The notes under the pieces are model-generated. The model saw only the letters and a program-made list of their open reading frames with translations. It did no database searches and was not told the DNA's origin. Of a stretch of 64,000 nt of DNA, positions 427 through 25,659 are shown piece by piece (position 1 is the stretch's first letter; each line of letters opens with the position of its first letter). Source of the stretch: Rhododendron vialii (lineage: Eukaryota > Streptophyta > Magnoliopsida > Ericales > Ericaceae). The stretch lies in assembly GCF_030253575.1 (NCBI RefSeq), contig NC_080558.1, positions 5,962,001-6,026,000 of the forward strand. The letters run 5' to 3'. A program made the translations under genes and the position numbers.

Positions 427-894
427 ATGGCTCGCTTCCTTCCATTAGCTATTGTCGCATTACACTTTGTTAGCTTGCAAACATTCTGTGATGATCAGCA
501 ACAACAATGGTTCCATCTTTACGCCGAACGCGCGGTTTACATTATCAACAACGTTCCTAATCCGCCATTGAAGTTTCGTTGCCAATCCAAAGGTTATGAC
601 TTATTGAATCGAACAATCACCAAGGGTCAAGTTTTTTCTTGGACGTTTCGTCCCGGCCTTTTCTTGTTGACTCGCTACTCCTGTCATTTCTACTGTTGTT
701 TGCAAGACAAAAGTATTGATGTTTACAGTAAGCAAATCGATCAATCCTGTAAAGACGATAACGGCAAGTTTAACTGCTATTATCGTGTGCAACCTGACGG
801 GTTGTATTTTAGCAACGATAACTTAAACTACAAACTAATAAATGACTGGGGCCCACCCAAAAAAACTGCTAGTACTACTGGGCACAACGATTAG
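427..894 (+). CDS. S-protein homologue (SPH) 1, with C-terminal extension
   Basis: Small secreted protein of the plant self-incompatibility S1 family, 155 residues, single exon. Residues 1-21 form a hydrophobic signal peptide, so it should enter the secretory pathway. The family core follows: a beta-rich domain with conserved Cys 52, 86, 108 and 117 (contexts FRCQSK, YSCHF, QSCK, NCYYRV) and the motif GLYFSND near the end. The start at 427 is chosen because MARFLPLAIV matches the paralogues and lies about 50 bp after a TATA box. After INDW, where SPH 7 stops within one residue, this copy carries 14 extra residues created by a 32-bp insertion. The closest relative is the copy at 25,234. Papaver PrsS is the founding S1 protein and acts in self-incompatibility; most homologues have unknown roles, so no specific function is claimed. 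Confidence 0.9.
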   Translation: MARFLPLAIVALHFVSLQTFCDDQQQQWFHLYAERAVYIINNVPNPPLKFRCQSKGYDLLNRTITKGQVFSWTFRPGLFLLTRYSCHFYCCLQDKSIDVYSKQIDQSCKDDNGKFNCYYRVQPDGLYFSNDNLNYKLINDWGPPKKTASTTGHND

Positions 895-965
895 TTCATA
901 TGATAGGAACCCTAAACAAATGGTCGTGGCGTTACTCTATGTACTAGACCATTTATATATGCATC

Positions 966-971
966 AATAAA
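966..971 (+). terminator. Polyadenylation signal of SPH 1
   Basis: AATAAA about 70 bp after the stop codon. The surrounding 3' flank is conserved with that of the copy at 25,234, where AATAAA occupies the same relative place. Confidence 0.65.
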
Positions 972-1650
972 ATTTTACAATAAGTTACCGTTTGATCCTT
1001 CTCATCTGTCGTCGTTCTTGATCAATTTAGTTTAGATTTATACAATGGTTTTGATTTTGATAATCGAGTAATGTAATCCGCAATTGAAGTTACACGAGAG
1101 CTAGTTCGGTGTAATATTGGAGTACATATTTCTTGACATCAATTCCGAAATTGGAAGGAATCTAGCAAGTTCGGGCTACTTGTAACGAAACTCTATCCGG
1201 CTAATTTTCTCTATTGTCTATCGATGATATCAATTAGTTATCGAAAATTGTTGTGGGAATAATGTTTTTCACTATATTGCCTTTGGATTTTGGAGATACA
1301 AATGAAAAAAAAGGATTTTAATCAGATAAGGAATCAACCCAAAAAGACTCCAAAAAAACTAAAAGCCCAATACAGATAAACCCAAAACGTGCCTAAAAAC
1401 AAGACTCCAAAATCAGGACTTGAAACTAACAGTGCCCTTTGGCTAGTGGGCCCACTGTATTTTGCGAATTTTTTTTTTGGTAAAATATTTAGCAAAGTTT
1501 ATTTGTATTTACCTTCATGCGTTTCCTCACACTTTCCTTCTTAATTTCCTTTCATTTCCATAGGTACCAAACAAAGGGTTTCACGTTTCCTCTCTCTTAA
1601 GTTTTGAAGGGGCTTTCTTTTATTCTGAAACTATTTTTTTTAAAGAATGT
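972..1650. other. Intergenic, no gene seen
   Basis: AT-rich. Up to about 1090 it is still alignable with the flank of the SPH copy at 25,234. Beyond that nothing coding or repetitive stands out. Confidence 0.5.
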
Positions 1651-1654
1651 TACG

Positions 1655-1950
1655 TACACAAATCTCGACCACAAAAATTTGGACACAATTGCATCCAGAG
1701 TCGTTCGATGCACATGGGTTCACAAGCGTCGAATGGCTACGATCTACGGACCCAATTGTGTCTGGACTTGTGGTCGAGTCGTCAAGAGTTGGTCGGATTT
1801 AAAAAAACAATTTTGTTGTCCAAGGAGGGAGGGTTGCCAAGCCCGCCCAAGACCTTGTGGGGCTTACCCGAGCAGGCTCTATCCAAAAGAAAAACAAAAA
1901 TGACTATCTTCATGGCGCTTGTACAAAAAAACCCTTATTTAATTTCCCGA
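1655..1950. repeat. Duplicated SPH upstream block, copy 1
   Basis: This stretch is repeated at about 2790-3075 with many substitutions. Shared landmarks include GATGCACATGGGTTCA, TGGTCGAGTCGTC, GGTTGCCAAGCCCGC and CTTCATGGCGCTTGTACAAAA. It continues into the SPH 2 promoter, so block plus gene were duplicated as a unit of roughly 1.1 kb. Confidence 0.8.
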
Positions 1951-2137
1951 AAAAAAAATAATAGTAAAAGCTAATTATTAGGTTAACAAATAAGAACATT
2001 ATACACCATAATCTCTTTCTAATTCTTTGCGAGCTAATGCCAAATAATAAATTCAAATGTCCATAACTAATGACTTTTCCATTTTTAACTTGGTACACTA
2101 AATTATCAATTGAAAAAAATCGAATTGCCTTCCACAA

Positions 2138-2149
2138 ATATATATACGC
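2138..2149 (+). promoter_or_regulatory. TATA box of SPH copy 2
   Basis: ATATATATACGC about 60 bp before the ATG at 2207, followed by the shared leader motif CATTCCAAAC at 2181-2190. Confidence 0.6.
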
Positions 2150-2206
2150 ACCTTTTTTTATATGCCTACCACATGTTAGACATTCCAAACATTACTACAA
2201 AGTACA

Positions 2207-2602
2207 ATGAGGTACATCTTCCTCCTTCCATTAGCCATTGTTGCATTTCACTTTCTTTGCATGCAAACATTGTGTCATGAGGAACAAGATTTGGTCATTC
2301 TTTTTCCTCGACGCACAATTTCGATTAAATTCATAGATTTTGCGGGGCCTTTAAATTTTCACTGCGCATCCAAATACTATGGTACCGGACAGCAGACACT
2401 CTACGATCAGCAAGAATTTCACTGGGACTTTAATCCCTACTTTACGAAAGAGGTCCCGAGCTACTCGTGTCATTTCAACGATAGGACGCTGAAGAAAACT
2501 TTGGTTGTTTACAATCTGAAGTTCGATAAATTGTGCACACGCGGCAACAAACATATCTGCTACTGGTTGGTGACTAATAGAGGTTTTTATTTAAGACCCT
2601 AA
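2207..2602 (+). CDS. S-protein homologue (SPH) 2, C-terminally short
   Basis: S1-family secreted protein of 131 residues, single exon. Signal peptide is residues 1-23 (hydrophobic run ending TLC). The four family cysteines are at 53, 88, 110 and 118, in contexts FHCASK, YSCHF, KLCTR and ICYWLV. It is nearly identical in design to SPH 3 but stops after GFYLRP, about 14 residues earlier, so it lacks the terminal strand seen as GNDGASFRLYKTGW in SPH 3. All four cysteines are kept, so it may fold, though loss of the last strand makes function less certain. The upstream region is shared with SPH 3 and the broken copy at 6651, showing local duplication. The start matches the paralogues. Confidence 0.82.
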   Translation: MRYIFLLPLAIVAFHFLCMQTLCHEEQDLVILFPRRTISIKFIDFAGPLNFHCASKYYGTGQQTLYDQQEFHWDFNPYFTKEVPSYSCHFNDRTLKKTLVVYNLKFDKLCTRGNKHICYWLVTNRGFYLRP

Positions 2603-2789
2603 GTTTTTCCACGTAAATCGTGCGTCTCTCGTATCAATTTTATTTTACTGCACTACTTGAGTTTAGGTTTGGATTAATCGATAATCAACCCATTCATCTA
2701 TATTAATTTTTAATCAGTGAATTTACTTTCAAATTGGTTTTTTTTTTTAATCAAAACTCCTATTCACCCCTTTCTAGGAGTAGTTTCAA

Positions 2790-3075
2790 CGCTTCCACAT
2801 AATTTCAATACGGACACAGTTGCGTCCAGAGTTGTTTGATGCACATGGGTTCATAAGTGTCGAATGGCTACGGCCTACGGGCCCAGTTATGTCTAGACTT
2901 CTGGTCGAGTCGTCGAGAGTTTGTTGGGTTTGCAAAAAAATAATTTTTGTTGTCCCATGATGGAGGGTTGCCAAGCCCGCACGGGGGCTTTGTGGGGCTT
3001 ACCCTGCCGGGCTGGCTCAATACTAAGAAAAACTAAAATGACAATCTTCATGGCGCTTGTACAAAATCTTTATTT
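2790..3075. repeat. Duplicated SPH upstream block, copy 2
   Basis: Second copy of the block at 1655-1950, diverged by substitutions and small indels, leading into the SPH 3 promoter region. Confidence 0.8.
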
Positions 3076-3185
3076 AATTTCCTTGAAAAAGAGAGAGTAA
3101 AAGCTAATTATTAATTAGGTTAACAAATAAGAAGATTATATACCATAATCTCTTTCTTTCTTTTTCGGTCAAACAGAAATTCCCA

Positions 3186-3470
3186 TAATCTCTTTCTAAT
3201 TCTTTGCTATCTATCCCAAATAATAAATTCAAATACCCATAATATCTTTCTAATTCTTTCAATAGAAAAATTGAATAATCTCTTTCTAATTCTTTGCTAT
3301 CTATCCCAAATAATAAATTCAAATACCCATAAGTATATATACCACATCTTGACATAATCTCTTTCTAATTCTATCCCAAATAATAAATTCAAATACCCAT
3401 AATATCTTTCTAATTCTTTCAATAGAAAAATCGAATTGCCTTCCACAAGTATATATACCACATCTTGACA
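3186..3470. repeat. Shuffled tandem repeats in SPH 3 promoter, with two TATA blocks
   Basis: A unit of about 55 bp beginning TAATCTCTTTCTAATTC and ending AAATACCCAT occurs at 3186-3240, 3276-3330 and (9 bp shorter) 3355-3400. A second unit beginning AATATCTTTCTAATTC is at 3241-3270 and 3401-3430. A third 24-bp unit carrying the TATA box (AAGTATATATACC...TTGACA) is at 3331-3354 and 3447-3470. Only the last copy is followed by the leader motif and ATG. The other SPH genes have a single copy of these units. Confidence 0.88.
3450..3458 (+). promoter_or_regulatory. Proximal TATA box of SPH copy 3
   Basis: TATATATAC about 45 bp before the ATG at 3496. An identical block at 3331-3354 lies upstream without a start codon next to it. 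Confidence 0.65.
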
Positions 3471-3495
3471 TTCCAAACAGTACCTACGAACTACA

Positions 3496-3930
3496 ATGAA
3501 GTACTTCTTCCTCCTTCCATTAGCCATTGTTGCATTTCACTTTCTTTGCATGCAAACACTGTGCCATGAGGAACAAGATAATTTGGTCATTCTTTTTCCT
3601 CGACGCACAATTTCGATTTATTTCATAGGTCCATCGGGGCCTTTAAATTTCACTTGCGAATCCCAGTACGATGGTGCCGGACCGCGGACGCTCTACCCTC
3701 GACAAGAATTCCATTGGGAGTTCAATCCCTACTTCACGAAAGAGGTCCCCAACTACTTGTGTCATTTCAACACTAGGACGCGGAAGAAGAGTTTCGTAGT
3801 TTACAACCTGCAGTTCGATAGATTGTGCACGCGCGGCGAACAACATATCTGCTACTGGTTGGTGGGTGATAATGGTTTCGCTCTGGGCAACGATGGCGCT
3901 TCATTCCGTTTATATAAAACTGGGTGGTAA
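3496..3930 (+). CDS. S-protein homologue (SPH) 3
   Basis: Full-length S1-family secreted protein, 144 residues, single exon. Residues 1-23 are a signal peptide. Family cysteines are 54, 89, 111 and 119 (NFTCES, YLCHF, RLCTR, ICYWLV). There is one N-glycosylation sequon NFT at 51-53 next to the first core cysteine. The C-terminus FRLYKTGW is complete. The start is set by paralogue alignment and by the leader motif CATTCCAAAC at 3469-3478. It shares a long 3' flank with the broken copy at 6651. It is probably a secreted ligand-like protein as for other S1 members, but no partner is visible. Confidence 0.9.
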   Translation: MKYFFLLPLAIVAFHFLCMQTLCHEEQDNLVILFPRRTISIYFIGPSGPLNFTCESQYDGAGPRTLYPRQEFHWEFNPYFTKEVPNYLCHFNTRTRKKSFVVYNLQFDRLCTRGEQHICYWLVGDNGFALGNDGASFRLYKTGW

Positions 3931-3939
3931 GAACCCAAT

Positions 3940-4890
3940 GCATCCACAGAGATGTATCCTGTTTGATGCACTATCGTGTTTGATGAACTCAACAACTCAT
4001 ATTCGTAATTAATAATAAGAAGTCATGGGTGATTTATGGTGTTCTCCTTCGTCTCAACTTCCTTTTTATTTACCGATTAACGTTGTGTCTGTTCGATCCA
4101 CGGGGTCGAAAAAAAATATCATTAAGAACTTTTTTCCTACATGCATAGCAGGTCGACATGTATAACTTTTGGAATTTACTCCCTTCTCTATTTACTCGCA
4201 TTTTTAAAAGAATTGGTTTTGCTGCGCACACACTTATATTTTCGCAAAAAAAAAAAGGAAAAGAAGGGAAATTCCACAACAATAACAGAGGAAAAACAAA
4301 GAAAGAAATAAGATAAGTTTCAAGCAAAATAAAGTCCATAACTGTTATGTTAATGATTAAACTTAATTTCTTTTTTCAAGCAAAATGAATTATATTTTTT
4401 CAGTGGAGGAGTTAGGATTAAGAATCCCGAGGAGCCAAGTCATAACGAAAATAATTTAATGTTAAATTTCTCTCTATTCCTTACTCAACAAACAAGTAAA
4501 AAAAAAACTACCAATGTACTTGCATTCCATAGTCAAATGATAAGCCAAAATACATTTTCCAAGATTGATTATGATCAAAATAAAACAAAAGTAGTTTAAC
4601 AATTTATCAAAGTAGAACCAACATGTTTTCAAATCTCGAAAATCATCTGAGATAAACTAAATTGCATTGCAATTTAATTTAATTTCGATATATACAATCA
4701 CCTCTTTGCTGAAATCAAACATTCAAGCCAATTTAATTAGGCAATTTCAAGCTGATTCAATCAAAGAACAACACGAAAAGCAACGCTGTGTTCGTAAGTC
4801 GTCAAAAAAGATGGAAGGAGAAGGAAGGATTTTGTTTGGAATTAAAGCTTTGTTTTATTTGTTCAAGAGTAAAAGAGACACTCAAATGTA
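3940..4890. repeat. SPH 3' flank, duplicated at about 7100-8040
   Basis: Long noncoding flank after SPH 3 that aligns with the flank after the broken copy (7100-8040). Shared landmarks are AAGTCATGGGTGATTTATGG, TAGCAGGTCGACATGTATAA-like sequence, and GTGGAGGAGYTAGKATTAAG. No coding potential was seen. This shows the SPH 3 / SPH 4 duplication covers at least 1.4 kb. Confidence 0.8.
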
Positions 4891-5201
4891 TTTGGTAACA
4901 TGATGATTCTGATAACTCAGATATCCAGACCTGCTTACGTGTACATTGAACTAATTTTGCCGTCGGAAATAATTATCTTACTTGGTAAGTACTGACCCTC
5001 TAACTTTCCTCTATGAAAGTGTACAATCGTGATTCGTGGCCAACAAGCAAACTCAATTGATTTATTTAGCACATATTTTTAAAAACATATAAGAAACTCA
5101 TCGATCAAAAATGACAGCAAGGGATTTTGGGGGTCATGTATTTTTTGGCATTTCTTGTTTTTTGAGAGTCGGGTTTTATTTCAGCCGGGGCTATTTCGCA
5201 T

Positions 5202-5784
5202 AACTACGCCAAATTTTAGCATTAGCGGCATGAGAAAACTGCCGTTAATAGTCCCAAAATTGCCGGTAATACTCAAAACCGTCGGTAATAGTTCAAAAAC
5301 CGCCGGAAATAAACCGCCGGGAAAACAATTGTCAGAAAAACAAAAGCAGCATTAGAAAACCGCCGGTAATACTAAAAATGGCGGTAAAGAACCGCCGGCA
5401 ATAAAATCAGTGGTTAAATTTTTTTGCTTTCTTTGTGACTCGAACCCGGAACCTCCGGATCTTTGAACGCGTGTGCGACCAACTCGGCTAACCCGCATTA
5501 TGGTTCAACTAGGATAAATAATATTATTTATATTATACAGGTCGGTTTTATTATAAACGGCGGTAATAAACCGCCGGTAATAAAAATAACCGTACATTCT
5601 ACTTTTTCCGGCAATAATTAAAAAACCGCCGGTAAAAATCACTAAAAACGGCAGTTTTTGGATTACCGCCGTTTTAGGGTAATTATTACCGGCGGTCTTA
5701 TTAATGCCGCTAAAAGTGTCTTTTAACGGCATTAAATTAATGCCGGTAATACTATCGCCGGTAAAGCCAAAATTTGGCGTAGTT
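5202..5784. mobile_element. Non-autonomous DNA transposon, 583 bp, possibly CACTA-like
   Basis: Terminal inverted repeats AACTACGCCAAATTTTAGC (5202-5220) and GCCAAAATTTGGCGTAGTT (5766-5784) match at 18 of 19 positions. Inside are many copies, in both orientations, of a subterminal motif CCGCCGGTAATA / TACCGGCGG. Short ends plus subterminal repeats are typical of CACTA (En/Spm) elements. The first base is A where CACTA ends normally have C, and no clear 3-bp target duplication was found, so the superfamily is an inference. No transposase is encoded. Confidence 0.75.
5435..5497 (-). other. tRNA-like Pol III promoter segment inside the transposon
   Basis: On the minus strand an A-box-like TAGCCGAGTTGG (5479-5490) is followed by a B-box-like GGGTTCGAGTC (5437-5447). 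The spacing resembles a tRNA or tRNA-derived SINE head. A proper acceptor stem and anticodon stem are not evident, so it is not called as a tRNA gene. Confidence 0.5.
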
Positions 5785-6220
5785 TTATGGGTTTTTGCGG
5801 GTGTGGTGTGTGTTTCGCGATGTGATCTTTTGCAGTGGATCTTGCTAGTCATGTTTTTTTTCTGGTGTACATGTTTTTGTGGTTCTTGGCGGGGGTGTTT
5901 TGGTGGTGTCGTGATTCGGTTTTTGCTGCCCGTGCTTTCGCTTGGTTGGGCTGCCGCGTGTACACGGCACACGGCCTTCATCTGTTCCAATTCCTCTACG
6001 ACACACGATTCCCCTGAAATTTGGATAACTTACCGAGAAAAACGAAAAGAAGATTTAGGGGCATTTGATTCTGTTAACGGTGTTAAAGTAGAATCCAAAA
6101 CCACGAGACGGCGTATTGGTCATTTCCAAGTGAGATAGGCAATGTGCCAAAGAGGCTGTGGAAAGTGAAAGGTTGCTAGGGTAAAGGGATGGGTTAGAGA
6201 GAGTGTAACTTGTTTAAAGA
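5785..6220. other. Intergenic, GT-rich unclassified stretch
   Basis: GT-rich sequence after the transposon. An open frame crosses it but matches nothing recognisable and shows no splice context. It may be part of the older repeat into which the 5202-5784 element inserted. Confidence 0.35.
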
Positions 6221-6224
6221 AGAA

Positions 6225-6360
6225 TTTCATTAATAAAAGAAGAAAGGAGAGTACAAGTAAAGGCTTAGGGGTAAAAGCATCACAACGCAAAAGTAACATC
6301 CCAACTATGTTGGCACCTTACCCCGCGACAATTATCTGTAACTTAGCTCACAAATTGTTA
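6225..6360 (-). mobile_element. Retroposon 3'-end fragment
   Basis: Shares the phrase ACATCCCAAYTATGTTGGCAC and the following CCCCRCRACAAT with 58350-58395. Both have an AATAAAA-like segment at what would be the 3' end in minus orientation. It is probably a decayed tail of a LINE or related retroposon. Confidence 0.45.
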
Positions 6361-6650
6361 AGGAATCAACTTGAGATCACGGCTCTCGTACAAAACCTTT
6401 ATTTAATTTCTTGAAAAAAAATAGTAGTAAAAGCTAATTATTAGGTTAACAAATAAGAAGATTGTACACCATAATCTCTTTCTAATTCTTTGCTATCAAT
6501 CCCAAACACTAAATTCAAATATCCACAACTAATGACTTTTCCAATTTTAACTTGGTACACTTAATTATCAATTGAAAAATCGAATTTGCCCGCTTCCTCA
6601 AGTATACATACCACATCTTTTGACATTCCAAACAGTACCTACAAAGTACA

Positions 6651-7090
6651 ATGAAGTACTACTTCCTTCCATTAGCCATTGTTGCATTTCACTTTCTTTT
6701 GCATTCAAACACTGTGTCACGAGGAACAAGATAATCTGGTCATTCTTTTTCCTCCGCACCGAATTTCGATTAAATTCATAGGTTTCGCAGGGCCTTTAAA
6801 TTTTCGTTGCGCATCCAAATACGATGGTACTAGACCGCAGACACTCTACAATCAACAAGAATTCCATTGGGACTTTAATATATCCCTACTTTACGAAAGA
6901 GTTCCCGAACTATTTGTGTCATTTCAACATTGGGACGCTGAAGATGAAAACTTTGGTTGTTTACAATCTGCAGTTCGATAAATTGTGCTTGCGCCCTGAC
7001 AAACATTTCTGCTACTGGTTGGTGACTGATAAAGGTTTCGCTTTAGGCAACAATGGTGTTTCATACGAATTATATAAAACTCCATGGTAA
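6651..7090 (+). pseudogene. S-protein homologue (SPH) 4, frameshifted
   Basis: Fourth copy of the SPH 2/3 type. The ATG context, TATA region and leader motif CATTCCAAAC (6624-6633) are intact. One extra T near the end of the signal peptide shifts the frame, giving a stop after 27 codons. A further 4-bp insertion lies before the PYFTKE block. The remainder reads as a good S1 domain, with FRCASK, YLCHF, KLCLR and FCYWLV cysteine contexts and a complete C-terminus ending LYKTPW. The gene therefore decayed recently from a full-length ancestor close to SPH 3. Sequencing or assembly error is a less likely alternative because two independent indels are needed. Confidence 0.85.
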
Positions 7091-7099
7091 AAACCCCTT

Positions 7100-8040
7100 G
7101 CATCCACGTATGTGTATCATGGTTGATGTACTCAACAACTCATATTCGTAATAACAAGAAGTCATGGGTGATTTATGGTTTTCTCCTTCGTCTCAACTTC
7201 CTTTTTATTTACCGACTAGCGTTGTGTGCGTTCGATGCAAGGGGTCATTGACAATTTTTTTCCTGTGTGCGTTCGATGCAAAGGGTCATTGACAACTTTT
7301 TTCCTGTTGTCCTATGCATCAGCAGGTCGACATGTATAACTTTTGAAATTTACTCCCTTCTCTATTCACTCACTTTTTTGAAAGAATTGGTTTCCTTCAC
7401 ACACACGTATATTCTTGCCAAAAACAAAAACGAAAATTCCACAACAATAAAAGAAATAAATAAGATAAGTTTCAAGCAAAATAAAGTCCATATCTGTTAG
7501 TATGTTATTGATTGAACTTAATTCCTTTTTTCATGCAAAATAAAGTATATATTTTCAGTGGAGGAGCTAGTATTAAGAATCCCAAAGGGGCTAAATCATA
7601 ACGGAAAAAATATTAACGTCAAACATCTCTCTATTCCTTATTCAACAAACAAGTAAAAAAAAAACTACCAATATAAATGCATTCCATAGTCAAAGGATAA
7701 GCCAAAATACATTTTTCAAGATTGATTATCATCAAAATAGAATAAAAGTAGTTTAACAATCTATCAAAGTAGAACCTACATATTTTCAAATCTCAAAAAT
7801 CATCTAAGATTGACCGATTCTAAACACAATTGCATCGCAATTTCTATTTCGATATATATAATCTTCTGTCTGTCGAAATCGAACATTTTGGCCAATTTAA
7901 TCAAGCAATTTCAAGCTGATTCAATCAAAGAACAATACAAAAAACAATAGGAGTCGTTGAGTTTGTAAGTTGTCAAAAATAATGGAAAGAGAAGGAATGA
8001 TTTTGTTTGGAAGCTTTGTTTTATTTGTTCAAGAGTAAAG
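7100..8040. repeat. SPH 4 3' flank, copy of 3940-4890
   Basis: Second copy of the long SPH flank, colinear with 3940-4890. It contains a small internal tandem duplication around 7206-7300, where GTTGTGTGCGTTCGATGCA-like sequence occurs twice. No gene seen. Confidence 0.8.
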
Positions 8041-8174
8041 TACATGGAAACATAAATAGAACAATGAATAAAAAGATGAAAAAATGAAAAACATCTCATG
8101 TTGAAAAGGGAATTAAGGATAGAGCTTCCTTTAATTTCAGGTAATTACATTCTCTTAGTATCTATATATAGTAA

Positions 8175-8547
8175 GGCCTTGTTCCGGTAAGCTTTTTGGG
8201 CATTCTTTATTCAAAAAATACACTTTTGTTAGCTTCACACCAAACATTTGGAGATTATTGATTTATCTCCACTGGAGAAATCGAAAAACCCAATTATTTT
8301 TTTTTTTACCCAAATGTTTTGAGAAATATCCAAGATAAAGCCCCCAAAACTGGCTTTTTGGGCTTGATCTTGGTTATTTTCAAAAATATTTAGGTAAAAT
8401 AATTTTTTATTTTTTTAATTTCTCTCATCAAAACGAATCAATAATCCACAAAAAAAAAAGTTTGGCGCTAAACTAACAAACGCAATTTTTTTTTATAAGG
8501 ACAAAACTCTAAAAAAAAAAACCCCAAAAACTTAGCGGAGCAAAGCC
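8175..8547. mobile_element. Tourist-like (PIF/Harbinger) MITE, 373 bp
   Basis: Terminal inverted repeats GGCCTTGTTCCGGTAAG and the complement of CTTAGCGGAGCAAAGCC pair with few mismatches. TAA flanks the element on both sides (8172-8174 and 8548-8550), the expected 3-bp target duplication of this superfamily. AT-rich interior with no open frame. Confidence 0.85.
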
Positions 8548-8774
8548 TAAGAGCATCCATAATGGCATAAAAAAAATCAAAAGGTTGCAAAGGTTAACAA
8601 TATCTACTCAAAAAAGTGCTTATATTGGAATAATAAAAATTAGCAACCTCTTAGCAACTAACCAAATTTTGGCCATTGGATAATCAAACCTAGCAACATT
8701 TTGCAAATAACTAAATTTAGTGGACCCCACATCTTCTAAATCAAGTACATCTCTCATTTTTTTTGCCCATATTT

Positions 8775-8910
8775 TATATTTTTTTTAAATACCAAAAAAG
8801 ATTTTATTAATTTTTGAAAACGGATTACAAAGATTTCCAAGCAAAGGCATCAAACCAGAGGAAGGACCAACCACAAGAAGGCAAGACCTAACTCCGACAA
8901 CCATAGTTTG
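8775..8910 (-). mobile_element. Retroposon 3' tail
   Basis: Read on the minus strand it ends with TTAATAAAATCTTTTTTGG followed by an A-rich run. This resembles the 3' tails at 58255 and 27560-27662. It directly abuts the SINE copy at 8911-9068. Confidence 0.45.
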
Positions 8911-9068
8911 CAATATTTTATAGTTAGTGGGAAATTAGTCAACGGAGAGTCTCAAAGGCTATTCATAGCCCTAGAACTCCAAACCCCACCTCTCGTGAGA
9001 CTCGAACCTTGGTCTCCACGGAGAGAGGACATGAACAAACCTGTCGAACCATCTCACCGAACATGATT
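8911..9068 (-). mobile_element. tRNA-derived SINE, copy 1
   Basis: Minus strand. It carries a B-box AGGTTCGAGTCTC (complement of 8997-9009) and a body that aligns with the plus-strand SINE at 46056-46207, sharing the phrases TTCATGT, ATGAATAG and CCGTTGACYAA followed by CCCACTAACT. Two copies of the same body at distant sites define the family. Confidence 0.7.
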
Positions 9069-9415
9069 TCTCACAACAATTAACTTTAGGTCGAAATAGT
9101 AAAATTATTCAAACTCAACCACTCACTTTACACATGCACACCGGAGAGTGTGCCCCAACCGCTAGTTTGCATAAAAGCCTATGAATGTAAGATGCTTATT
9201 ATTAATTATTGATTGGAAATCCAATTGCGAAAGGTAATTGAATTATGATTTGTCCATTAACCTTGATTTTATCAGCCAATTACCTAAATAGTAGCATCCC
9301 ATGTTCTCTTTCTATGATTTCTCTACACAGATAATTAATTCAACTATCCATAATTAATTAACTCATTTTCCATTTTTGAACTTTATCGAGTCAAAATCTA
9401 CTTACCTCAGACATG

Positions 9416-9423
9416 TATATAAA
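9416..9423 (+). promoter_or_regulatory. TATA box of SPH copy 5
   Basis: TATATAAA 37 bp before the ATG. Leader motif CATTCCAAAC is at 9435-9444. Confidence 0.7.
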
Positions 9424-9452
9424 CCCCCTGCTCGCATTCCAAACACAGTACG

Positions 9453-9890
9453 ATGGCGCGCTTCCTTCCGTTAGCCATTGTCGCATTTCACTTGCTAGTT
9501 TGCTTGCAAACATTGTGTGATCAGCAACAAGCTACTTCTGCCGGCCTCGTCCCTCCGCGGGTGGTTACCATTGTTTGCGCTGTTCCGAATGCTCAGCTGT
9601 TGAGAATCCATTGCCTCTCCAAGGAAAACGATCTCGGAGAGCACGCACTCGTCTACGGTCAAGAATACTACTGGGAAGTGACCGTTCCCAGCAACTCGAC
9701 GGATTACCCGCGCTATTTCTGCGGTTTCACCTCGGGCTCGAAGAAACAATTTTTGGTCGTTTACGATGCGAAGGTAGATCCTTCGTGTAAAAACAACGAC
9801 AAACATGAATGCTACTGGTTTGTGAGTGAACAGGGTTTCTTTTTCAGCAATGTTGGCAAGGATTATCGTAAAATAGCTGGTTGGGCATAA
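9453..9890 (+). CDS. S-protein homologue (SPH) 5
   Basis: Full-length S1-family secreted protein, 145 residues, single exon. Signal peptide is residues 1-22. Core cysteines are 54, 90, 112 and 120 (IHCLSK, YFCGF, PSCKN, ECYWFV). N-glycosylation sequon NST is at 81-83. It ends KIAGWA like SPH 6, with which it forms a second subgroup. It is more G+C-rich at codon third positions than the SPH 2/3/4 group. The upstream block (CTCTTTCTATGATTT, CCATAATTAA) is shared with SPH 6, so promoter and gene were duplicated together. Function within the plant is not deducible from sequence. Confidence 0.9.
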   Translation: MARFLPLAIVAFHLLVCLQTLCDQQQATSAGLVPPRVVTIVCAVPNAQLLRIHCLSKENDLGEHALVYGQEYYWEVTVPSNSTDYPRYFCGFTSGSKKQFLVVYDAKVDPSCKNNDKHECYWFVSEQGFFFSNVGKDYRKIAGWA

Positions 9891-9944
9891 CCGTAATTAT
9901 ATGCATCGACAGATATATGTATTAATGTATACTATGTTGGGTGT

Positions 9945-9950
9945 AATAAA
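9945..9950 (+). terminator. Polyadenylation signal of SPH 5
   Basis: AATAAA 55 bp after the stop codon in an AT-rich context. Confidence 0.6.
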
Positions 9951-10031
9951 ACTATTAATCATTTTGAAAAAATGTGGGATCATATGAGTCAAACTTCAAT
10001 AAAAAGTTTAAAGCTGTCGTTGCAATTTGCA

Positions 10032-11380: not shown

Positions 11381-11427
11381 TTGATCGAATGAAAAAACTA
11401 TACTTAATTACCTTCAACATTTACTCC

Positions 11428-11435: not shown

Positions 11436-11478
11436 TATAAACCCACATATACACATGTTGGCATTCCAAACGGGTACG

Positions 11479-11910
11479 ATGACTCGCTTCCTTCCCTTCG
11501 CCATTGTCGTCGCGCTTCACTTAGTTTGCATGCAAACACTGTGCGCGCAACAAGGCGCCTTGACCGTTCTTTTCCAAGCACGGGTGGTTCACATTTTCAG
11601 CGCTCTCCCAAACACTTCGCCGTTGAACGTTCGTTGCCTCGCCAAAGGCGACGATCGCGGGACGTACACGCTCAACTACAGTCAAGAACTCTACTGGCAA
11701 TTCAATCCCTACAACACTTCGGGAAACCCTATCTATTTCTGCCGCTTCAACTGGGGTTCGAAGCAGAAAACATTGGTTGTTTACGATATAGAGTTAGATC
11801 CTTTGTGTAAGCACAATGACATATATGAGTGCTATTGGTTTGTGGCTTCCAATGGTTTCTATTTTAGCAATGACGCCATGGATTATCGTAGAAGAGCTGG
11901 TTGGGCTTAA
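11479..11910 (+). CDS. S-protein homologue (SPH) 6
   Basis: Full-length S1-family secreted protein, 143 residues, single exon. An upstream in-frame ATG exists at 11389, but the start at 11479 is chosen because it aligns with all paralogues and places the TATA box and leader motif in the usual positions. Signal peptide is residues 1-22. Core cysteines are 53, 88, 110 and 118 (VRCLAK, YFCRF, PLCKH, ECYWFV). Three N-glycosylation sequons (NTS 45, NYS 66, NTS 79) make it the most heavily glycosylatable copy here. It ends RRAGWA like SPH 5. Codon third positions are G+C-rich in the middle of the gene. Confidence 0.9.
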   Translation: MTRFLPFAIVVALHLVCMQTLCAQQGALTVLFQARVVHIFSALPNTSPLNVRCLAKGDDRGTYTLNYSQELYWQFNPYNTSGNPIYFCRFNWGSKQKTLVVYDIELDPLCKHNDIYECYWFVASNGFYFSNDAMDYRRRAGWA

Positions 11911-17000: not shown

Positions 17001-17918
17001 GTTCAAGAGGTTCAGCAATTGTACTATGGAAAAAGAACGAAATCATAGCCAATTAACATGTAGAGGGTCAACAATCATACTACCGAAAAAAAGCCCAAAG
17101 ATTCAAAGAATCTTTTTTATGGAAAAAGATTCAACAAATCTTAAGTCGAATATAAAGTTTCTAATAGCAACTTATAAATGAAAAAAACATAATCAAGTAG
17201 CTATACTTCAATATTAAATACCTACGTACATAAAGGTTTTCAAGCCTTCTGATACCGTTACACTCCTATATTACGGTTGAATAAAAAATCGCATGCATAT
17301 TGGCCGGTTCTCATTATGTATCGGTCCGAATTCCGTGAAAAATAATTTTCAAGAAATTCTCTACCGATACAACTGATCCCCATTACGTATCGTTCCATAC
17401 TCAAGATATCATTACACCGCGACCGTTACCTCCTGATACCGTTATTTAAACCTTGGCAACAATAACAATACGGTGAAAAATTACCAATAAGGCAATAACA
17501 GATAAAATTCAAGACTTTAAATTACTACTAATATCTTATTAGTCGCATATAACCTCAAGTCTGTATCTTTTTACATCAAAGCACATCATAACCATGAGAT
17601 GAAGCAAAATTTGAGTAATTAATACAATGAAAAAATTACCTTAATAATCCAAATACTATCAATGAATTCCTCAAGAATCCCAGGTCCTTGGTCCCGCGGC
17701 GAGTAATCATACCACCACCGCCTCTGCGGGCCAAATTCTTTATCATCGTCGGCATTTGAGTCCCGGCGACGGTACCTGGTCCGTATAACGGGGCGGCGAA
17801 AGTGAGGAAAGAGATTAGGGTTTGGAGGAGAGAGAGAGGTAATGGGGATTGTGAAGGGGCACAGGTGAGATTGGTGAGAGAATGTAAGAACAGAGACCGA
17901 AGCAGTGGCACTCCTCAT
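14059..17918 (-). CDS. Plastid-type membrane protein of unknown function (two exons)
   Basis: Exon 1 is 17918-17640 (93 codons, donor AAG|GTAATT) and exon 2 is 14556-14059 (165 codons plus stop, acceptor TGCAG|GTATTC), giving 258 residues in frame. Residues 1-45 are Ser/Thr/Pro-rich with few acidic residues, like a chloroplast transit peptide. An acidic-basic stretch follows, then [29 protein letters not shown], and a hydrophobic segment [20 protein letters not shown] of one to two membrane spans. The ATGPTAFL region is what I recognise from uncharacterised plant chloroplast membrane proteins. A basic and acidic tail and a short final hydrophobic patch complete it. The 3.1-kb intron is unusually long beside the coding length and contains a 14-C run. 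Biochemical role unknown. Confidence 0.8.
16434..16447. repeat. Homopolymer C(14)
   Basis: Uninterrupted run of 14 C in the intron of the 14059-17918 gene. Its length is likely to vary between reads and individuals. Confidence 0.9.
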
Positions 17919-18060
17919 CCTGGCGAGCTCTTTTCAATTATCCTCCGTGCTGAGCTCCCTGTATTTTTAGGTTCATATTTTTTTTTTTTCATAATTTTTG
18001 TTTCGATGGTTCGAGTGTCGAGGTCAACTTAAGCTCACCTTGATTATTTCACTTTTCATT

Positions 18061-18281
18061 TAGGGCTGTAAAAGAGTCAAGTCGAGATTTATTAAATTCA
18101 AGCTCGACTCATTTAATAAAGGAGCCAAAAACTTGAGGTCGATCTCGACTCGAACATTAATTAGCCAAGCACTTAACGAGTCAAGCGTGAAAATTCTTTG
18201 GCTAGCCACTTTCAAAAATAAATGTTTTGGTTAGGCATAATTTTTAGAGCCAAGCGTGAAAATTCTTTGGTTAGGCACTTT
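18061..18281. repeat. hAT-like family A fragment followed by tandem repeat
   Basis: Begins TTTAGGGCTGTAAAAGAG with AAGCTCGACTC words, as in family A, but the right end is missing. From about 18180 a unit of about 70 bp (AAGCGTGAAAATTCTTTGG ... AAATAAATGTTTTGGTTAG) is duplicated. The second unit is split by the element at 18292-18667. Confidence 0.6.
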
Positions 18282-18291
18282 CAAAAATAAA

Positions 18292-18667
18292 AGAAAATTT
18301 ATAGAAATGGTCCTTCTAATTTCATCCGAGTCTCATTTTCGTCATCCAAGTATCAATTGCAACTCTTTTGACCTCCAAGTTTGGTTTTCGTACCAAGTTG
18401 GTCCAATTGATAATATTTGTCAGCCAAACTAGAAGAAAAAAAATCAGATTGAGGGTAGACGTTATCAATTGGACCAACTTGGTACGAACTGCAATGTACA
18501 AACTGCGATCAATGTAATTTTTTCTGTCAAATTTGTCTGATAGAAGTTATTAATTTGACCGATTTAGTACGAAAATCAAACTTGAAGGTCAAAGGAGTTG
18601 CAATTGATACTTGGAGGACGAAAATGAGATTCAGATGAAACTAGGAGGACCATTTCTATAAATTTCC
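18292..18667. mobile_element. MULE-type MITE with about 120-bp inverted repeats
   Basis: Left arm 18292-18415 and right arm 18548-18667 pair over about 120 bp. Landmarks are TTTATAGAAATGGTCC at each end, TCAATTGCAACTC, and TTTTCGTACYAA near the centre. It is flanked by a 10-bp direct repeat CAAAAATAAA (18282-18291 and 18668-18677). Long inverted repeats with 9-10-bp target duplications fit Mutator-like elements. It has no coding capacity. Confidence 0.88.
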
Positions 18668-18677
18668 CAAAAATAAA

Positions 18678-19180
18678 TGTTTTGGTTAAGCATAAAATTT
18701 TTTTTTTTTTTGGTTCTAACAGAAGGGGTGTCGACCAACTTTCACGCACCTCATCACATTTTTCGATCCAGTCAAATGCAGACCATCCACATCAGAATTA
18801 AAAAATTACATTATAGAGGTCCGGGCCAAGCTATACTCAGCTCAAGTAATTTCGCTCTTTGTGCCAATCAAATGCATCATTCACGCTGGGACTAAAAATT
18901 CATAAAAATACTCCAATTTTTCAGTAGCATAACCTCAAGTATCCAACATGATCAATTGTGTAGGGAGGTAACTCAACAATCAATCGAACTAACTCCGAGA
19001 TATATTACGTATGATAAAAATAATAGAATCCATGATATTCAGGTCATGTAAAAATATTCATAAAAATAAATAAATGGTTTAAATTGATTCGGATTCAGCA
19101 TTATGGATCTGAACCATTCATATACTTTCGTGAATATTTTCATGGTCCAGATGTCATGGATTGCCCCGATCCTCTGGCCA
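18678..19180. other. Upstream region of SMAP1
   Basis: Resumes the tandem unit interrupted by the MITE, then AT-rich intergenic sequence. A short stretch at 18724-18760 (GGTGTCGACCAACTTTCACG) resembles repeat sequence also present at 43490 and 43910. A TATA-like CATAAATACC is near 19180. Confidence 0.4.
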
Positions 19181-19275
19181 TAAATACCCAACGCCGTCAC
19201 AAAGGATTCTGCTCTCGTTGACACCAAAAAACTGTTTACTGCGAGCCCACGCTTCCGACGGAGAGAGAGAAGGAG

Positions 19276-19464
19276 ATGAAGCCGTCGCCGGTGGACTACT
19301 TCGCAGAGACGGAGGACCATGGATCGTCGATGGCCATGGACGTTGACGACAGCGAAGCCCTAGAAATGTTCGGAGAAGGCCCGATTTCCTTCGACAACAA
19401 AATCGCCGACGCCGACTTCTATAACTCCTTCGAAGACGACTTCGACGACACCGATATCAACTGA
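19276..19464 (+). CDS. SMAP1: Small acidic protein 1 (SMAP1-type)
   Basis: Complete 62-residue acidic protein in a single exon. The central MAMDVDD and the C-terminal DADFYNSFEDDFDDTDIN closely match the conserved tail of Arabidopsis SMAP1, which has the same length. In Arabidopsis SMAP1 and SMAP2 act in the response to the synthetic auxin 2,4-D and connect to the auxin/COP9-signalosome regulatory network; this role is from known family work, not from this sequence. The Phe/Asp-rich end is the diagnostic part. There is no signal peptide or membrane segment, and it is presumably nuclear or cytosolic. The start is the first ATG in frame with the conserved core, preceded by a GAGA-rich leader. 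Genes this short are often missed by annotation pipelines. Confidence 0.9.
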   Translation: MKPSPVDYFAETEDHGSSMAMDVDDSEALEMFGEGPISFDNKIADADFYNSFEDDFDDTDIN

Positions 19465-21815
19465 ACTCTCCACATAGTCCTCTTTCTAGTGTTTTTCGGA
19501 TGTGAGGTATACTTTTCGTTTTTTTTTTTTTTCCTTCAAGTTTTTACGTATGGTTGTTTTGATGGAACGTACGAGGAATCCATAACCAGATACAATTTGT
19601 CGCGTCGATTTTGATGCGAAGCTATGATTGAATTAGCTGTTTGGTTTTTGTCCTTGGGCAAATTTGTGTATCTGTTCTTCATATTGTACTGTTAAAACTT
19701 AAAATGACTCGCCCTGTTTGTTTGACCGGATATCAGTATCGCATTGGATTGTATGTCAAATTTGATTATATATCCTGTTTTTTGGGTAGATGTTGATGAT
19801 CCGAATTAAACATGCTTTGGTGTTTTCAAGTCGGGTATCGTGTGTATTGTTTTTTCCACTTTAGGAATGGCATCGGGATACGTGTCGCCTACCGTAGGAT
19901 ACATTAACAAAAGCTAATATACAATTAAAAGTTAGTTATACCTAATTTCAATCTTGAAATCTGAGATATCTGTGAAAATAAGTGTTTTATTCTATGGAGA
20001 ATAAGTTTTTAGGATGAAAATTTTCAAGTCTGCGAAGTGGAGTCTATCACATTGAGACTTTATGGTGCCTTGTTCAAGGGAAGGGGAGAACAACCGTTAT
20101 CTGATTCATGCAAAACATGATCGAAATGTGTTCTTTTTTTAAATTCAAGCTCCAATGGATTGATTTTTGGGTTTCTGAAAATGGTTTAAATGTCTCCATC
20201 ATTAGATCGAACGATTTAGAACACGTCTGGTGTTGTTCTTCTTAAAACATGGTATGACTTTCTTCAGTAAGTAGTAAGTAATCATAGGATGCATACTGAA
20301 TCGGGATACACAAATGTATCGTTGGATACGTCATCATATCGTAGGATTTCTATGCAAAAATGAAATGGGATGCGATGCATATCGTTTTTTGGAAGTGGAC
20401 GATACATATGGTAAGTCTTTAACAACTATGGCTTCGGTTGTATAATCTCACAGAATTTGATTTCGACAATACTATGGGTTTCTATTGAATAAACAACAAT
20501 ATAAGGTTGGCTATTTGTATGTATAATTGTTCATATAAGGTCGATTAAATGAAGATCAAGACAATATTGTTTTCCTGCCTAGTTGTTTCTTCCCCCATGT
20601 TAAAGAATTGATTGATCTTGTAGTATCTTCTGATGTGTGGTAAATGCTTGCCCAAATTGCTACCTGGTATCAAGCATTGTTTGGATACTGATGGTGGTGT
20701 GCAGAATCTTGCACCATTTTATTGAGTGTTGGCTACTTAGTACCCATGTTGCTGTGAATAAATGTGGAATGTTTGTCTCCTTTGTGGTCTTTCACTCGTG
20801 CTCTTTACAATTCTGTTACTGTTAGGGGAGGCCTAGCAACAACAAAAAAATATATCTGTTAGGGGGGGGGGGGGTTGAATCACCTCAACCAAAGTAAGGG
20901 GAACCTTTGATGCAATTGGTAACTTAGAAATGCAGATATTGTTGCATATCTTCGCGTATATTCAGCAACGATATTACTCCCTTTAAGTTACCAAGCATTT
21001 GATGCTTCCAGATTTTGTATTTTGGTTCTCTGTTCCTTTTTCCGCGTACGTTTTAAAGAACCCCTGTTGATTGTTATGATTCGATCAAATGGTTCTTTCT
21101 TCTTGTGTTTTCTATTGTCTTATATGGTTTACCGAGTTTTTTCGAGTCTGATGAAACAAGATAACAATCTTGACATTTTAAGCATTATTTGTTTCACCGA
21201 AATTCATGTGTGATGATGGTCTGGTCAGTCAATCTTTAGTTCACATTGCTCTGCCGGTGATGTAGGGATATGGTAATCACAGCCTTTTGTGTATGCAGCT
21301 TAGAAACAGGCCAACTCGTGTTTATAAACACTATGGCTCTGGTGTTTGTCTGGTTTTGGTTTGGAGACTCTTGGTGCTACACCTTGAGGGAAGACTTGGT
21401 GTGGTCTATGATATGTTTACTTATTGATTGTTTTGTAATGCGGGTATTTTGGCTCAATTAGGACTTTGTTTCTTGCTTGCATGGTTCTTGAAGGTGTTGT
21501 ACGTTGTAGCCCAGTTGGCCACCATGGCGGTCTCTTCCTCGGGGTTTAGGTCATTGGTTCCTCTCTTTGATTCTGCATAAGTTGCCGACTGTTAGCCTTG
21601 GGTTCAAACTCTTTCTGGTGACGCGTGTGGAGTCAACTGATTGCGTTTATTCGGGACTTGCTTGGTCTAATGTGGTTCTGCCTTGAAAAGGTTCCTTGAT
21701 AATTAAGCTGCTTTCAGATGTTTCTGTTGTGTAAGCCCGTTTGTTGGGTTGCTTTTGGTGATATAAAAAAAGAGCTGCTTTCCAGCCTATTTGGTCAGAA
21801 TTCATGTGCCTTATT
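19465..21815. other. Long intergenic stretch, no gene seen
   Basis: Begins as the SMAP1 3' UTR (about the first 250 bp), then T-rich sequence with only short open frames lacking recognisable products or splice structure. A 13-G run is at 20862-20874. The region 19870-20420 has several ATCG-rich words (GGGATACG, ATCGTAGGAT) suggesting an old repeat. Confidence 0.4.
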
Positions 21816-21819
21816 ACCT

Positions 21820-22066
21820 GGGATTTGAGTCATCCGATAAACGAGCTGAGTTTGACTAATTTCCTTGACAAGCCGAGCCTATAAAACATGCTGAGTTTTG
21901 TGAGCCGAGCCCAAGTTTGGCTAATTTACTTGACGAGCCGAGCTTATAAAACATGCCGAGTTTTTGCGAGCCAACTCGAGTGCTGAGCTCGGCTCGATTA
22001 CTAAACGAACCTTAACGAGCCGAGTGACGAGCTGTTTGCGAGCAGCTCGGTTCATTTGCAGCCCAT
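21820..22066. mobile_element. hAT-like family A element, copy (right end)
   Basis: Dense GAGCTCGGCTCG, CGAGCCGAG and ACGAACC words, ending GGTTCATTTGCAGCCC. This is the mirror of the family left end (GGGCTGCAAATGAACC-type). The left end is not clear. Confidence 0.6.
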
Positions 22067-22660
22067 GCATTCAAAAAAAAAAAAGGTTGAGTACAAGGTT
22101 TTTCAAATGCATTAGACTTATTTAGACATTAAGGCTCCGTTTGTATGACCGTAAAATATTTTTGTGTAAAATGTTTTACACCTATTTTCCACTATTTGGT
22201 TGCACAAAATATGAGTAAAATGTTTTACGAGTAAAATATTTTTCCTCAATTGAGGTAAAATAACTTACCGGCAAAAACTCCATAAGTTAATTACCGTTTC
22301 GATGATCGGCCCTCCGAACCAGCAGAGCAGTTATTAAACCAACCAAATTTGTTCCCCCTCCCTCACATGTCTTCTTTGTGTGGGCCGTGTGGCCCATCAT
22401 GACTCTCTCTCTCTCTCTAACGTGTACAATGTACATATTCTTATATACACCCACATATATCCTTTACTAGGGAATATGAATTAAAAAAATATTCCAAATC
22501 CTCCCATTAATCGATTGGGGTAAATATAATTGCATTGGAAAAGTATCTTACAACCAGGGAAAATGACTGGCAGGTGGAGTACGAAAGACTTAATTGCCAC
22601 TTTTATGGGCTACACTTTCGAAATGACTCATACATGGTAGGAAACTTTTAATAACAAATA

Positions 22661-22932
22661 CTTCCTCCGTCCCTTTTTTTGTGTCCAGTATTTCATTTTT
22701 GGCTGTCCCTTAATAAGTGTCCATTTTGTAAAGTTAGGGGGGTAAAAGTTGGTGTATTGTCTATTTTGTCCCTAAAAGTAGATTTTATTTTGAAAAGTTA
22801 GTGAGTAAAAGTGTAATGATGATGGGTAAGTAGGGAAAGTGGAGGAAAAAGTTGATGTGAAAGGTGTAATGATGATGTCTTTTTAATAAGTTGGAGTTAC
22901 GAAGCAGGACACTTAAAAAGGGACGGAGGGAG
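22661..22932. mobile_element. Stowaway (Tc1/Mariner-type) MITE, 272 bp
   Basis: Ends CTTCCTCCGTCCC and GGGACGGAGGGAG form the classical Stowaway inverted repeats. TA is duplicated on each side (22659-22660, 22933-22934). Nested within the 22133-24246 element. A decayed relative is at 10032-10289. Confidence 0.9.
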
Positions 22933-23044
22933 TACATGGTAACCATAACCCCGGTGAAATAGTTGGGACAATTTTGCCTCTGAATATAAAACGGCACCAT
23001 TTGTAATCAGAAGCTCCGCTCCAACCTTATTTGGGCCAAAAAAT

Positions 23045-23540
23045 GGCAAGTCAATATATGAAACAGATGTTTTATTATATTGAAATAAACCATTATTTTT
23101 ATTGATAAAGACCAAGTCATATCATGTTCAATGAATGTCATCTCCCATTGGAGCTCAACCAACCTTATTTTGGTCAAAAAAAGGCAAGTCAATATATGAA
23201 ACAGACTTTTTATTATATTGAAACAGACCATCATTTTCATTGATAAAGACCAAGTCATATATTGTTCAATGAATGCCATCTCCCATTCAAGCTCAACCAA
23301 CCTTCTTTGGGCCAAAAAAAGACAAGTCAATATATGAAACAGACTTTTTATTATATTGAAACAGACTATCATTTTTATTGATAAAGACCAAGTTATATCT
23401 TGTTCAATGAATGTCATCTCCCATTGAATCTCAACCAACCTTATTCATCCAGAAAAGGGCAAATCAATATATGAAACAGACGTTTTATTATATTGAAATA
23501 GACCATCATTTTTATTGAACTATGTCATCTCCCATTCTCC
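23045..23540. repeat. Tandem array of about 138-bp units
   Basis: Three full units start at 23045, 23182 and 23321, with a partial fourth at 23458, giving spacings of 137, 139 and 137 bp. Each begins GGCAAGTCAATATATGAAAC (or a close variant) and contains TTTTATTATATTGAAAYA and GTCATCTCCCATT. On the minus strand the array keeps one open frame with a repeating 46-residue pattern. This is most simply a consequence of a unit length divisible by three. Confidence 0.9.
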
Positions 23541-24249
23541 TGTTCCTCTTCACCGCCACCAGGCCCACCACCATCTCCTACAGGATCGGCACCCCTCAAC
23601 TTCCATAGCAACCACCACCCCCAGCCATTCCCACCTCTCTCTCTCTCTCTCTTACTCAATTTGAAAACTCCCAATTCACTGTTATTCACAAACCACAAAA
23701 TCCATTAATCTCTTCACCGCACCACCATCTCCCTTCTCCGGCACCATCACCCCTCAACCCCTATAGCAACCACCACCAAATTTTTTTGAAAGGCAAACCC
23801 AAATTAGTTCTGATTTTTTCCAACCAAAACCTAAATCAGTAGAGGCTAATTGCGCTTACCTAAGAGAGAGAGATACCAGAGTGAGAGAGGAGTCGCTTGG
23901 TGTGAGGAGTGGCCTGGTGTGTTGAACGATGAGAGATTGGGGGAGGAATGAGTTTTAGGGCTAATAAGTGATATATAAAGGAGGGTAAAATAGACATTTC
24001 AAGTTGGCACACCATGTATTAGTCAATATTTTTCCTCTTGTCGTGAGAGTGGTAGTTTCAAACTTTCAAGAGTGCAGACCATGATTTTGGGATTAATCCG
24101 GGTCAACACCTGTGACCTGTAATTTTCCCTTACAACTACTAACCAAACATTGGAAAACAAAAACGAAAACTTTATTTTAAAAAAAATTATTTTACATGAA
24201 AAATATTTTCAAGCGTAAAACATTTTACGTCGAAACAAACGGAGCCTAA

Positions 24250-24950
24250 GACCACCTCTTGGTACTACAACCACCCCTACTGATCCATTCAAATTTGGCC
24301 AAAGTGAGCCAAAACATATCAAACAAAAAGTACTCGAAGTGAAGTTAGAATACTCAAAGAAGGGGAATAAAAGAAATTCCTTTCATTGTTTGGTTTGAGA
24401 AAGTAGATGACAGAAAATGGGAAATAGAGTTTAAAAGCACAGTAAAAATTTCCTTTCATTTTCTTTTCCCATTTTTGTTGTTTTTCTCCCACTTTCTTTC
24501 TTAACCATTTTTGTTGTTTTTCTCCCACTTTCCACAAGCCAAAAGAAAGATAAACAAAGATGGTATACAAATAATGAATCCAACCTCACATAACCGGATT
24601 GTTTAAATCCTAAATTTTAAAAGTCAAAATCAAAGATATGCATGTAAGATTGTGTAGAAAAACAATAAATACAATCTTGCCCATTTAAAAATTGTTGAAA
24701 TCTACCAATAAGGAGTTGGTTCAGTGGTGAAAACTCATAAACTAGTTGGACGATGCCCAAATTAAAGTTCTCATAGCCCCTTATTGCACTAAGCGTACTC
24801 TCAACACCACCCACATATTGTGTGTCAGACTTTAGATTCAGTCCTAACTTGGGTGTGGTACATATAGTGGTGTGCTGTGGGGGACACTACTCCTTGACAG
24901 AAGTCACAAAGTACCATATCCGCACTTCCATTTGTTAGAAAAAAGGAAAA
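24250..24950. other. Intergenic, no gene seen
   Basis: AT-rich. A 40-bp direct repeat (TTTTTGTTGTTTTTCTCCCAC) occurs twice around 24470-24535. No coding potential recognised. Confidence 0.45.
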
Positions 24951-25192
24951 AAAAGGATTGTTGAAATCTCAAAATCTTAAGTTATCTGCAGATTTTACAT
25001 ATATGTTTGCAGATTCTCTAAACTTCCACAAGAAGAATTATTCGGTCTTTCTATTGTCAGCCCACTGGATTGACGATAAGCACACTAGAAGACAAGGCAA
25101 ACACGTATTTATGTGTACTTTTTACACCCTTTAATACACATTCACACAATTACTATTGTCAGCCCATTGGACTGATTTTAGAATTTTCCATC

Positions 25193-25200
25193 TATAAATA
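25193..25200 (+). promoter_or_regulatory. TATA box of SPH copy 7
   Basis: TATAAATA 34 bp before the ATG. Leader motif CATTCCAAGC is at 25218-25227. Confidence 0.7.
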
Positions 25201-25233
25201 CATGCATTAGATACTGACATTCCAAGCAAAACA

Positions 25234-25659
25234 ATGGCTCGCTTCTTCCTTCCATTAGCTATCATCGCATTTCACTTTGTTTGCTTGCAAACACTGTGCG
25301 AGCAGCAAGAATTGATCCATCTTTACGCCCCACGCATGGTTCACATTGTTAGCAACGTTCCAAATCCGCTGTTGAAGTTTCGTTGTCAATCCAAAGACAG
25401 TGATCTTGGGTTGCGCACACTCAACGATGGTCAAGAATTTTCTTGGAAGTTTTATCCCCATATCTTCTTCAGGACTCTCTTCTTCTGTCATTTCTACTGG
25501 GAGACAAAGGACAAAAGCTTTGTTGTTTACAATCAGGAAATTGATGGTTCGTGTAAAAACAAAAAAAGTGAGTTCAACTGCTATTTTCGCGTGAGTCCTG
25601 ACGGGTTCTATTTTAGCAATGATAACGTGAACTACAAAAAAATAAATGATTGGGCATAA
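25234..25659 (+). CDS. S-protein homologue (SPH) 7
   Basis: Full-length S1-family secreted protein, 141 residues, single exon. Signal peptide is residues 1-22. Core cysteines are 51, 85, 107 and 116 (FRCQSK, FFCHF, GSCKN, NCYFRV), and it ends KKINDWA. It is the sister of SPH 1, 25 kb away. Similarity extends from about 270 bp upstream (GAAATCTCAAA, GTTATYTGCAGATTT) to about 180 bp downstream, past the AATAAA. Unlike SPH 1 it keeps the ordinary C-terminus. It lies outside the main cluster, separated by two unrelated genes and many transposable elements. Role unknown beyond the family's secreted ligand-like character. Confidence 0.9.
   Translation: MARFFLPLAIIAFHFVCLQTLCEQQELIHLYAPRMVHIVSNVPNPLLKFRCQSKDSDLGLRTLNDGQEFSWKFYPHIFFRTLFFCHFYWETKDKSFVVYNQEIDGSCKNKKSEFNCYFRVSPDGFYFSNDNVNYKKINDWA

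Follow-up and report, generated by a model that had tools for sequence, protein, structure and literature searches.

Tandem S-protein homologue genes with an excess of amino-acid change at some mature codons in Rhododendron vialii

We analysed a stretch of 64,000 nucleotides from Rhododendron vialii (NC_080558.1, C2 in our contig numbering; C2:5962001-6026000), hereafter the window, which carries six open genes and one broken copy of the S-protein homologue (SPH) family. These genes form the right-hand part of a longer tandem array, and at some mature codons the array proteins show, by statistical test, more amino-acid change than neutral evolution predicts. The explanation that we favour, and hold to be reasonably probable, is an array of secreted SPH ligands, each with four cysteines, that diversifies through duplication, exchange and selection. 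The faster-than-neutral change in the exported part suggests diversifying recognition molecules, the gene family itself being well known.

Members and extent of the arrays

All six open copies matched the Pfam family PF05938 (Self-incomp_S1) with scores of 48 to 85.4 bits and E values of 2.1e-12 to 4.8e-24, the curated cut-off being 24 bits, and in each of them the domain falls within one open reading frame (ORF). They lie on the plus strand at 427..894 (SPH1, 155 aa, 66.5 bits), 2207..2602 (SPH2, 131 aa, 48 bits), 3496..3930 (SPH3, 144 aa, 49.2 bits), 9453..9890 (SPH5, 145 aa, 62.4 bits), 11479..11910 (SPH6, 143 aa, 60.7 bits) and 25234..25659 (SPH7, 141 aa, 85.4 bits). SPH1 has a C-terminal extension common to the upstream copies A5932 and A5948. 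For SPH6 the start homologous to that of its sisters was taken, the mechanical ORF start being 11389, and the piece scored against Pfam started four codons upstream of 11479. Coordinates and profile matches agree with a sequence-only reading of the window, which had proposed six intact copies and a broken one. The broken copy, SPH4 (6651..7090, plus strand), had been described as frameshifted; it is indeed broken, but by more than a single break, as its homology is split across three reading frames and therefore implies at least two frame breaks. Its tail ORF of 88 aa gave no Pfam match at E 0.01. SPH2, described as intact but cut short, has a short C-terminus, ending 12 to 13 residues before SPH3, but cannot count as fully intact, since the Pfam match stops at profile position 90 of 104; the four mature cysteines are retained despite the missing end.

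The window genes are thus members of the SPH family, encoding small proteins of beta-sandwich fold that have four conserved cysteines. These cysteines occur in the mature part of all six open copies, and among 57 aligned S1 proteins they were found in 57, 57, 53 and 54 sequences, respectively. The predicted model of mature SPH7 matched the beta-sandwich fold of Arabidopsis SPH15 (PDB 6g7g; PMC6439154), although the identity of the two proteins is just 18%; a single-sequence search of the PDB returned seven rows up to E 1, with no SPH among them. The N-terminus of the open copies is hydrophobic as judged by eye and is treated here as a putative signal peptide with an assumed cleavage site.

The 50-base repeat proposed as the probable centromere of Rhododendron vialii (PMC10338486) is present in the assembly (532,647,506 bases, 13 contigs) in 5,867 exact copies (4,756 and 1,111), and the reversed pattern is absent. 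A PF05938 profile search of the whole assembly returned at least 112 matches with pieces counted apart, 43 of them on the contig of the window. Clusters, defined as three or more matches no more than 50 kb apart, contained 80 of the 112. The left array comprises 15 matches over about 58 kb (C2:5,929,829-5,987,653), starting about 32 kb before the first base of the window and ending with SPH7, and about 89 kb beyond it a second array contributes 17 matches (C2:6,076,413-6,140,253). The cluster of seven that had been proposed is therefore only part of a larger arrangement. Counted by open frames, 12 genes of the left array have a complete or almost complete domain, half of them inside the window and the other six further left, and a profile built from the window genes detected broken S1 pieces between the Pfam matches of both arrays.

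Adjacent SPH genes with species-specific expansion have likewise been described in Turnera subulata, for the TsSPH1 paralogues, and in Passiflora organensis (PMC9862265). The family numbers 83 in Turnera against at least 112 matches, pieces included, here, and the groups of seven and nine genes in that source are smaller than the Rhododendron arrays of 15 and 17 matches (PMC9862265). In Rhododendron selection among copies was tested, and no link to an S-locus is known. The locus had been called unstudied, a fair description for this genus: we found no open-licence paper joining Rhododendron with S1 or SPH genes, and none on tandem "Self-incompatibility S1" genes with positive selection, but the comparable expansions above have been published.

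A tree was built from 57 of the 64 ORFs of the fetched loci (support given as bootstrap/SH-aLRT, the latter a Shimodaira-Hasegawa-like approximate likelihood ratio test). Seven ORFs were excluded, namely one two-locus duplicate and six fragments including the SPH4 tail, and one locus (L038) yielded no ORF; the 57 retained sequences are open frames, some of them possibly incomplete, and one from contig C12 has no leader. The six window genes, four genes of the left flank and ten genes of the second array fell into one clade (99/97), within which the second array was monophyletic (100/100). Three subgroups had been proposed from the sequence alone, and the tree recovered a group of SPH1, SPH7 and three upstream genes (98/93), another of SPH2, SPH3 and one upstream gene (100/100) and, with weaker support, the pair SPH5 and SPH6 (96/66), while SPH4 stood outside the tree and was placed with SPH3 and SPH2 by DNA alignment. 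The clade of window, left-flank and second-array genes is a local expansion, and gene-sized duplications are visible in the DNA between SPH1 and a copy located 13 kb upstream of it (1.0 kb at 87% identity) and between SPH3 and SPH4 (1.6 kb at 79%), the next best alignment of SPH4 being to SPH2 (0.7 kb at 84%). Trees of the two gene halves conflicted, the approximately unbiased (AU) test giving p values for the other half's tree of 0.011 and 0.089 in the window clade and of 0.012 and 9e-5 in the second array, so the copies seem to exchange sequence.

Outside this clade, two minus-strand SPH genes of the left array, L009 (C2:5930590-5931042) and L011 (C2:5947338-5947784), belong to a different SPH clade and group with three C12 genes (95/84) in a five-gene set without positive selection. 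On contig C9, the SPH genes L006 (C9:8135160) and L007 (C9:8169699), about 35 kb apart, differ at one of 139 residues, indicating a very recent duplication.

Amino-acid change in the mature proteins

Codon site models (M0, M1a, M2a, M7, M8a and M8, with F3x4 codon frequencies) were fitted to the mature codons with our own programs rather than PAML, the branch lengths being fixed at the M0 estimates apart from one free scale. In the SPH1/7 subgroup (five genes) the M0 ratio of nonsynonymous to synonymous rates (omega) was 0.96, and the M8a-M8 comparison gave twice the log-likelihood difference (2dlnL) of 21.3, with omega 5.1 at 18% of the mature codons. The corresponding values were 13.7, with omega 2.0 at 33% of the mature codons, for ten window-clade genes, and 14.5, with omega 2.15 at 24%, for the ten genes of the second array. 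The birth, loss and diversification suggested for the cluster thus find support in a class of codons with omega above 1 in all three sets, and neutral dN/dS in all branches, named beforehand as a refutation, is not the picture given by these tests, which address sites and not single branches.

Simulations under the M8a null, with branch lengths fixed except for scale, never reached the observed values, the maximum being 5.87 among 73 for SPH1/7 and 4.69 among 64 for the second array; as 8% and 5% of them exceeded 2.71, the test runs at its nominal level or is slightly liberal. When the gene halves were analysed on their own trees, positive selection was favoured in every case, with M8a-M8 values of 18.0 and 9.3 for SPH1/7 and of 5.2 and 11.9 for the second array.

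Raw distances were smaller for the signal peptide than for the mature part in all 14 pairs compared within window-clade subgroups and in 43 of 45 second-array pairs. Pooled ratios of nonsynonymous to synonymous differences (pN/pS) for signal peptide and mature part were 0.35 and 0.82 in SPH2/3 and 0.24 and 0.64 in SPH5/6. Of the three within-window pairs, SPH2/3 and SPH5/6 showed less divergence in the 100 bases upstream than in the mature part, SPH1/7 did not, and the near-identical promoter of the SPH1/7 subgroup is not shared by SPH7. Beyond 300 bases upstream, binned identity was 60% or less in eight of 11 pairs. A TATA-like element was seen by eye upstream of all six open copies. The divergence pattern of the leader and the upstream DNA may in part reflect the edge of a duplicated unit or exchange.

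Alternative explanations and neighbouring genes

Several results weigh against diversifying selection as the whole account. Since the half-gene trees conflict, recombination may inflate the site tests. The signal was weak in the set formed by SPH2, 3, 5, 6 and one upstream gene (M8a-M8 5.7, p 0.017; M1a-M2a p 0.061) and in the first half of the second array (M8a-M8 p 0.023; M1a-M2a p 0.14). By the method of Nei and Gojobori (NG86), pairwise dN/dS was 0.33 to 1.82 for the window clade, where only four of 45 pairs exceeded 1, and 0.31 to 1.04 for the second array, where only two of 45 did; a pair offered about 70 synonymous sites. Four comparison sets of four to six other SPH genes each, one of which (C12set) includes two minus-strand left-array genes, were divided: two gave non-significant M8a-M8 values of 1.07 and 1.12, and the other two gave 5.09 and 5.50 (p 0.024 and 0.019; M7-M8 p 0.0006 for the latter set). 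Because these two are weakly positive, selection is not peculiar to the window array. An enrichment of selected sites (naive Bayes calls, P > 0.8) outside the strands of the model was considered and rejected for the window clade, where five of the 11 mapped out of 12 sites and 10 of 19 lay outside strands against a background of 54 of 112 (p 0.69 and 0.43); for the second array the count alone was 13 of 18. Furthermore, pooled pN/pS was no lower for the signal peptide than for the mature part in SPH1/7 (0.76 and 0.72) or in the second array (0.64 and 0.50). In 10 of 14 window-clade pairs, yet in just eight of 45 second-array pairs, the mature part had diverged more than the upstream 100 bases, and a conserved proximal promoter was therefore dropped as a general feature.

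These observations give some room to relaxed constraint, in which the copies of a redundant array are drifting into pseudogenes and omega is high through weak purifying selection and exchange rather than adaptation. The broken pieces in both arrays, the truncated SPH2 and broken SPH4, the M0 omega values of 0.85 and 0.96 in two window-clade sets and the conflicting half-gene trees would all fit this explanation. However, the M8a null, which allows a neutral class, was rejected, also within gene halves; the cysteines and the predicted fold are retained; and two of the four comparison sets lack the signal, though it is weakly present in the other two. We therefore regard relaxed constraint as unlikely, although it is the most serious competitor of a diversifying ligand array.

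A self-incompatibility or cross-incompatibility locus, whose copies would be female or male pollen-pistil factors, has precedents in known systems. PrsS, the stigma determinant of poppy, belongs to the SPH family, and the SPH homologue SIPS (SRK-interacting interspecific pollen signal) takes part in interspecific pollen-pistil interaction (PMC13033167). Brassicaceae pollen coats hold 17 SPHs (PMC9856046), an S1-family protein is tabulated among pistil-specific secreted proteins of tomato (PMC5500324), and Papaveraceae S-like sequences contain a few positively selected codons (PMC3166141). PrsS of Papaver rhoeas resembles the window proteins in being small and beta-rich, with four conserved cysteines and some positively selected codons, but it is an allelic series at one locus linked to PrpS, while the Rhododendron genes are tandem paralogues (PMC13033167, PMC3166141). 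In an S-locus of the PrsS type a single female gene occurs in many alleles and is linked to a pollen gene; here many paralogues are present, and among 10 other window ORFs run against Pfam (E 0.01) none encodes a partner-like protein, five of them matching other families and five having no match, with no PrpS homology search made. PrpS is reported to be without homologues beyond Papaveraceae (PMC13033167). As neither the layout of one gene with many alleles nor a partner among the scanned ORFs was found, self-incompatibility is a minority reading that we consider doubtful. Least probable of all, in our judgement, are defence or stress proteins, in which secreted SPHs would bind variable microbial or membrane partners.

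The five ORFs with Pfam matches comprised one reverse-transcriptase zinc domain, two PPR and two beta-amylase pieces. The zf-RVT (reverse-transcriptase zinc-binding) piece at 26769-27128, plus strand, adjoins SPH7 on the right and is likely a retroelement remnant. The PPR gene (29155-31096, minus strand) consists of ORFs 29155-30363, with 10 PPR_2 stretches, and 30443-31096, with two, separated by a frame break or an intron. The beta-amylase (glycosyl hydrolase family 14; 49367-52687, plus strand) is made of two ORFs, probably exons of one gene, and lies between both SPH arrays. At 23021-23518 a direct repeat (offset 138 bases, 90% over 361 bases) is overlapped by a repetitive minus-strand ORF of 136 aa.

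Possible role of the SPH array

If the array encodes diversifying ligands, the copies would be expressed and exported, acting extracellularly as recognition molecules, and each SPH would bind a partner that is itself variable. Duplication, exchange and selection would then continually yield new binding surfaces, while unused copies would decay. By analogy, a pollen-pistil setting appears most likely because poppy PrsS and the SPH homologue SIPS act there, and development or defence are also possible. The published or proposed SPH roles are mostly reproductive, namely those of PrsS and SIPS (PMC13033167) and, for TsSPH1, a likely role in filament length (PMC9862265).

A more ambitious possibility, to which we give little credence, is that the two linked arrays constitute a multi-gene reproductive recognition locus with many parallel secreted, positively selected pollen-pistil ligands. 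We know of no self-incompatibility genes identified in the plant family of Rhododendron, and such a locus, if real, would be the "many paralogues" counterpart of the "one gene, many alleles" S-locus of poppy. Most SPH proteins have no known function, though Arabidopsis, Turnera and other plants carry some 80 to 100 of them. The array described here supplies concrete paralogues and candidate codons for tests of ligand activity in Rhododendron, which is bred by hybridisation.

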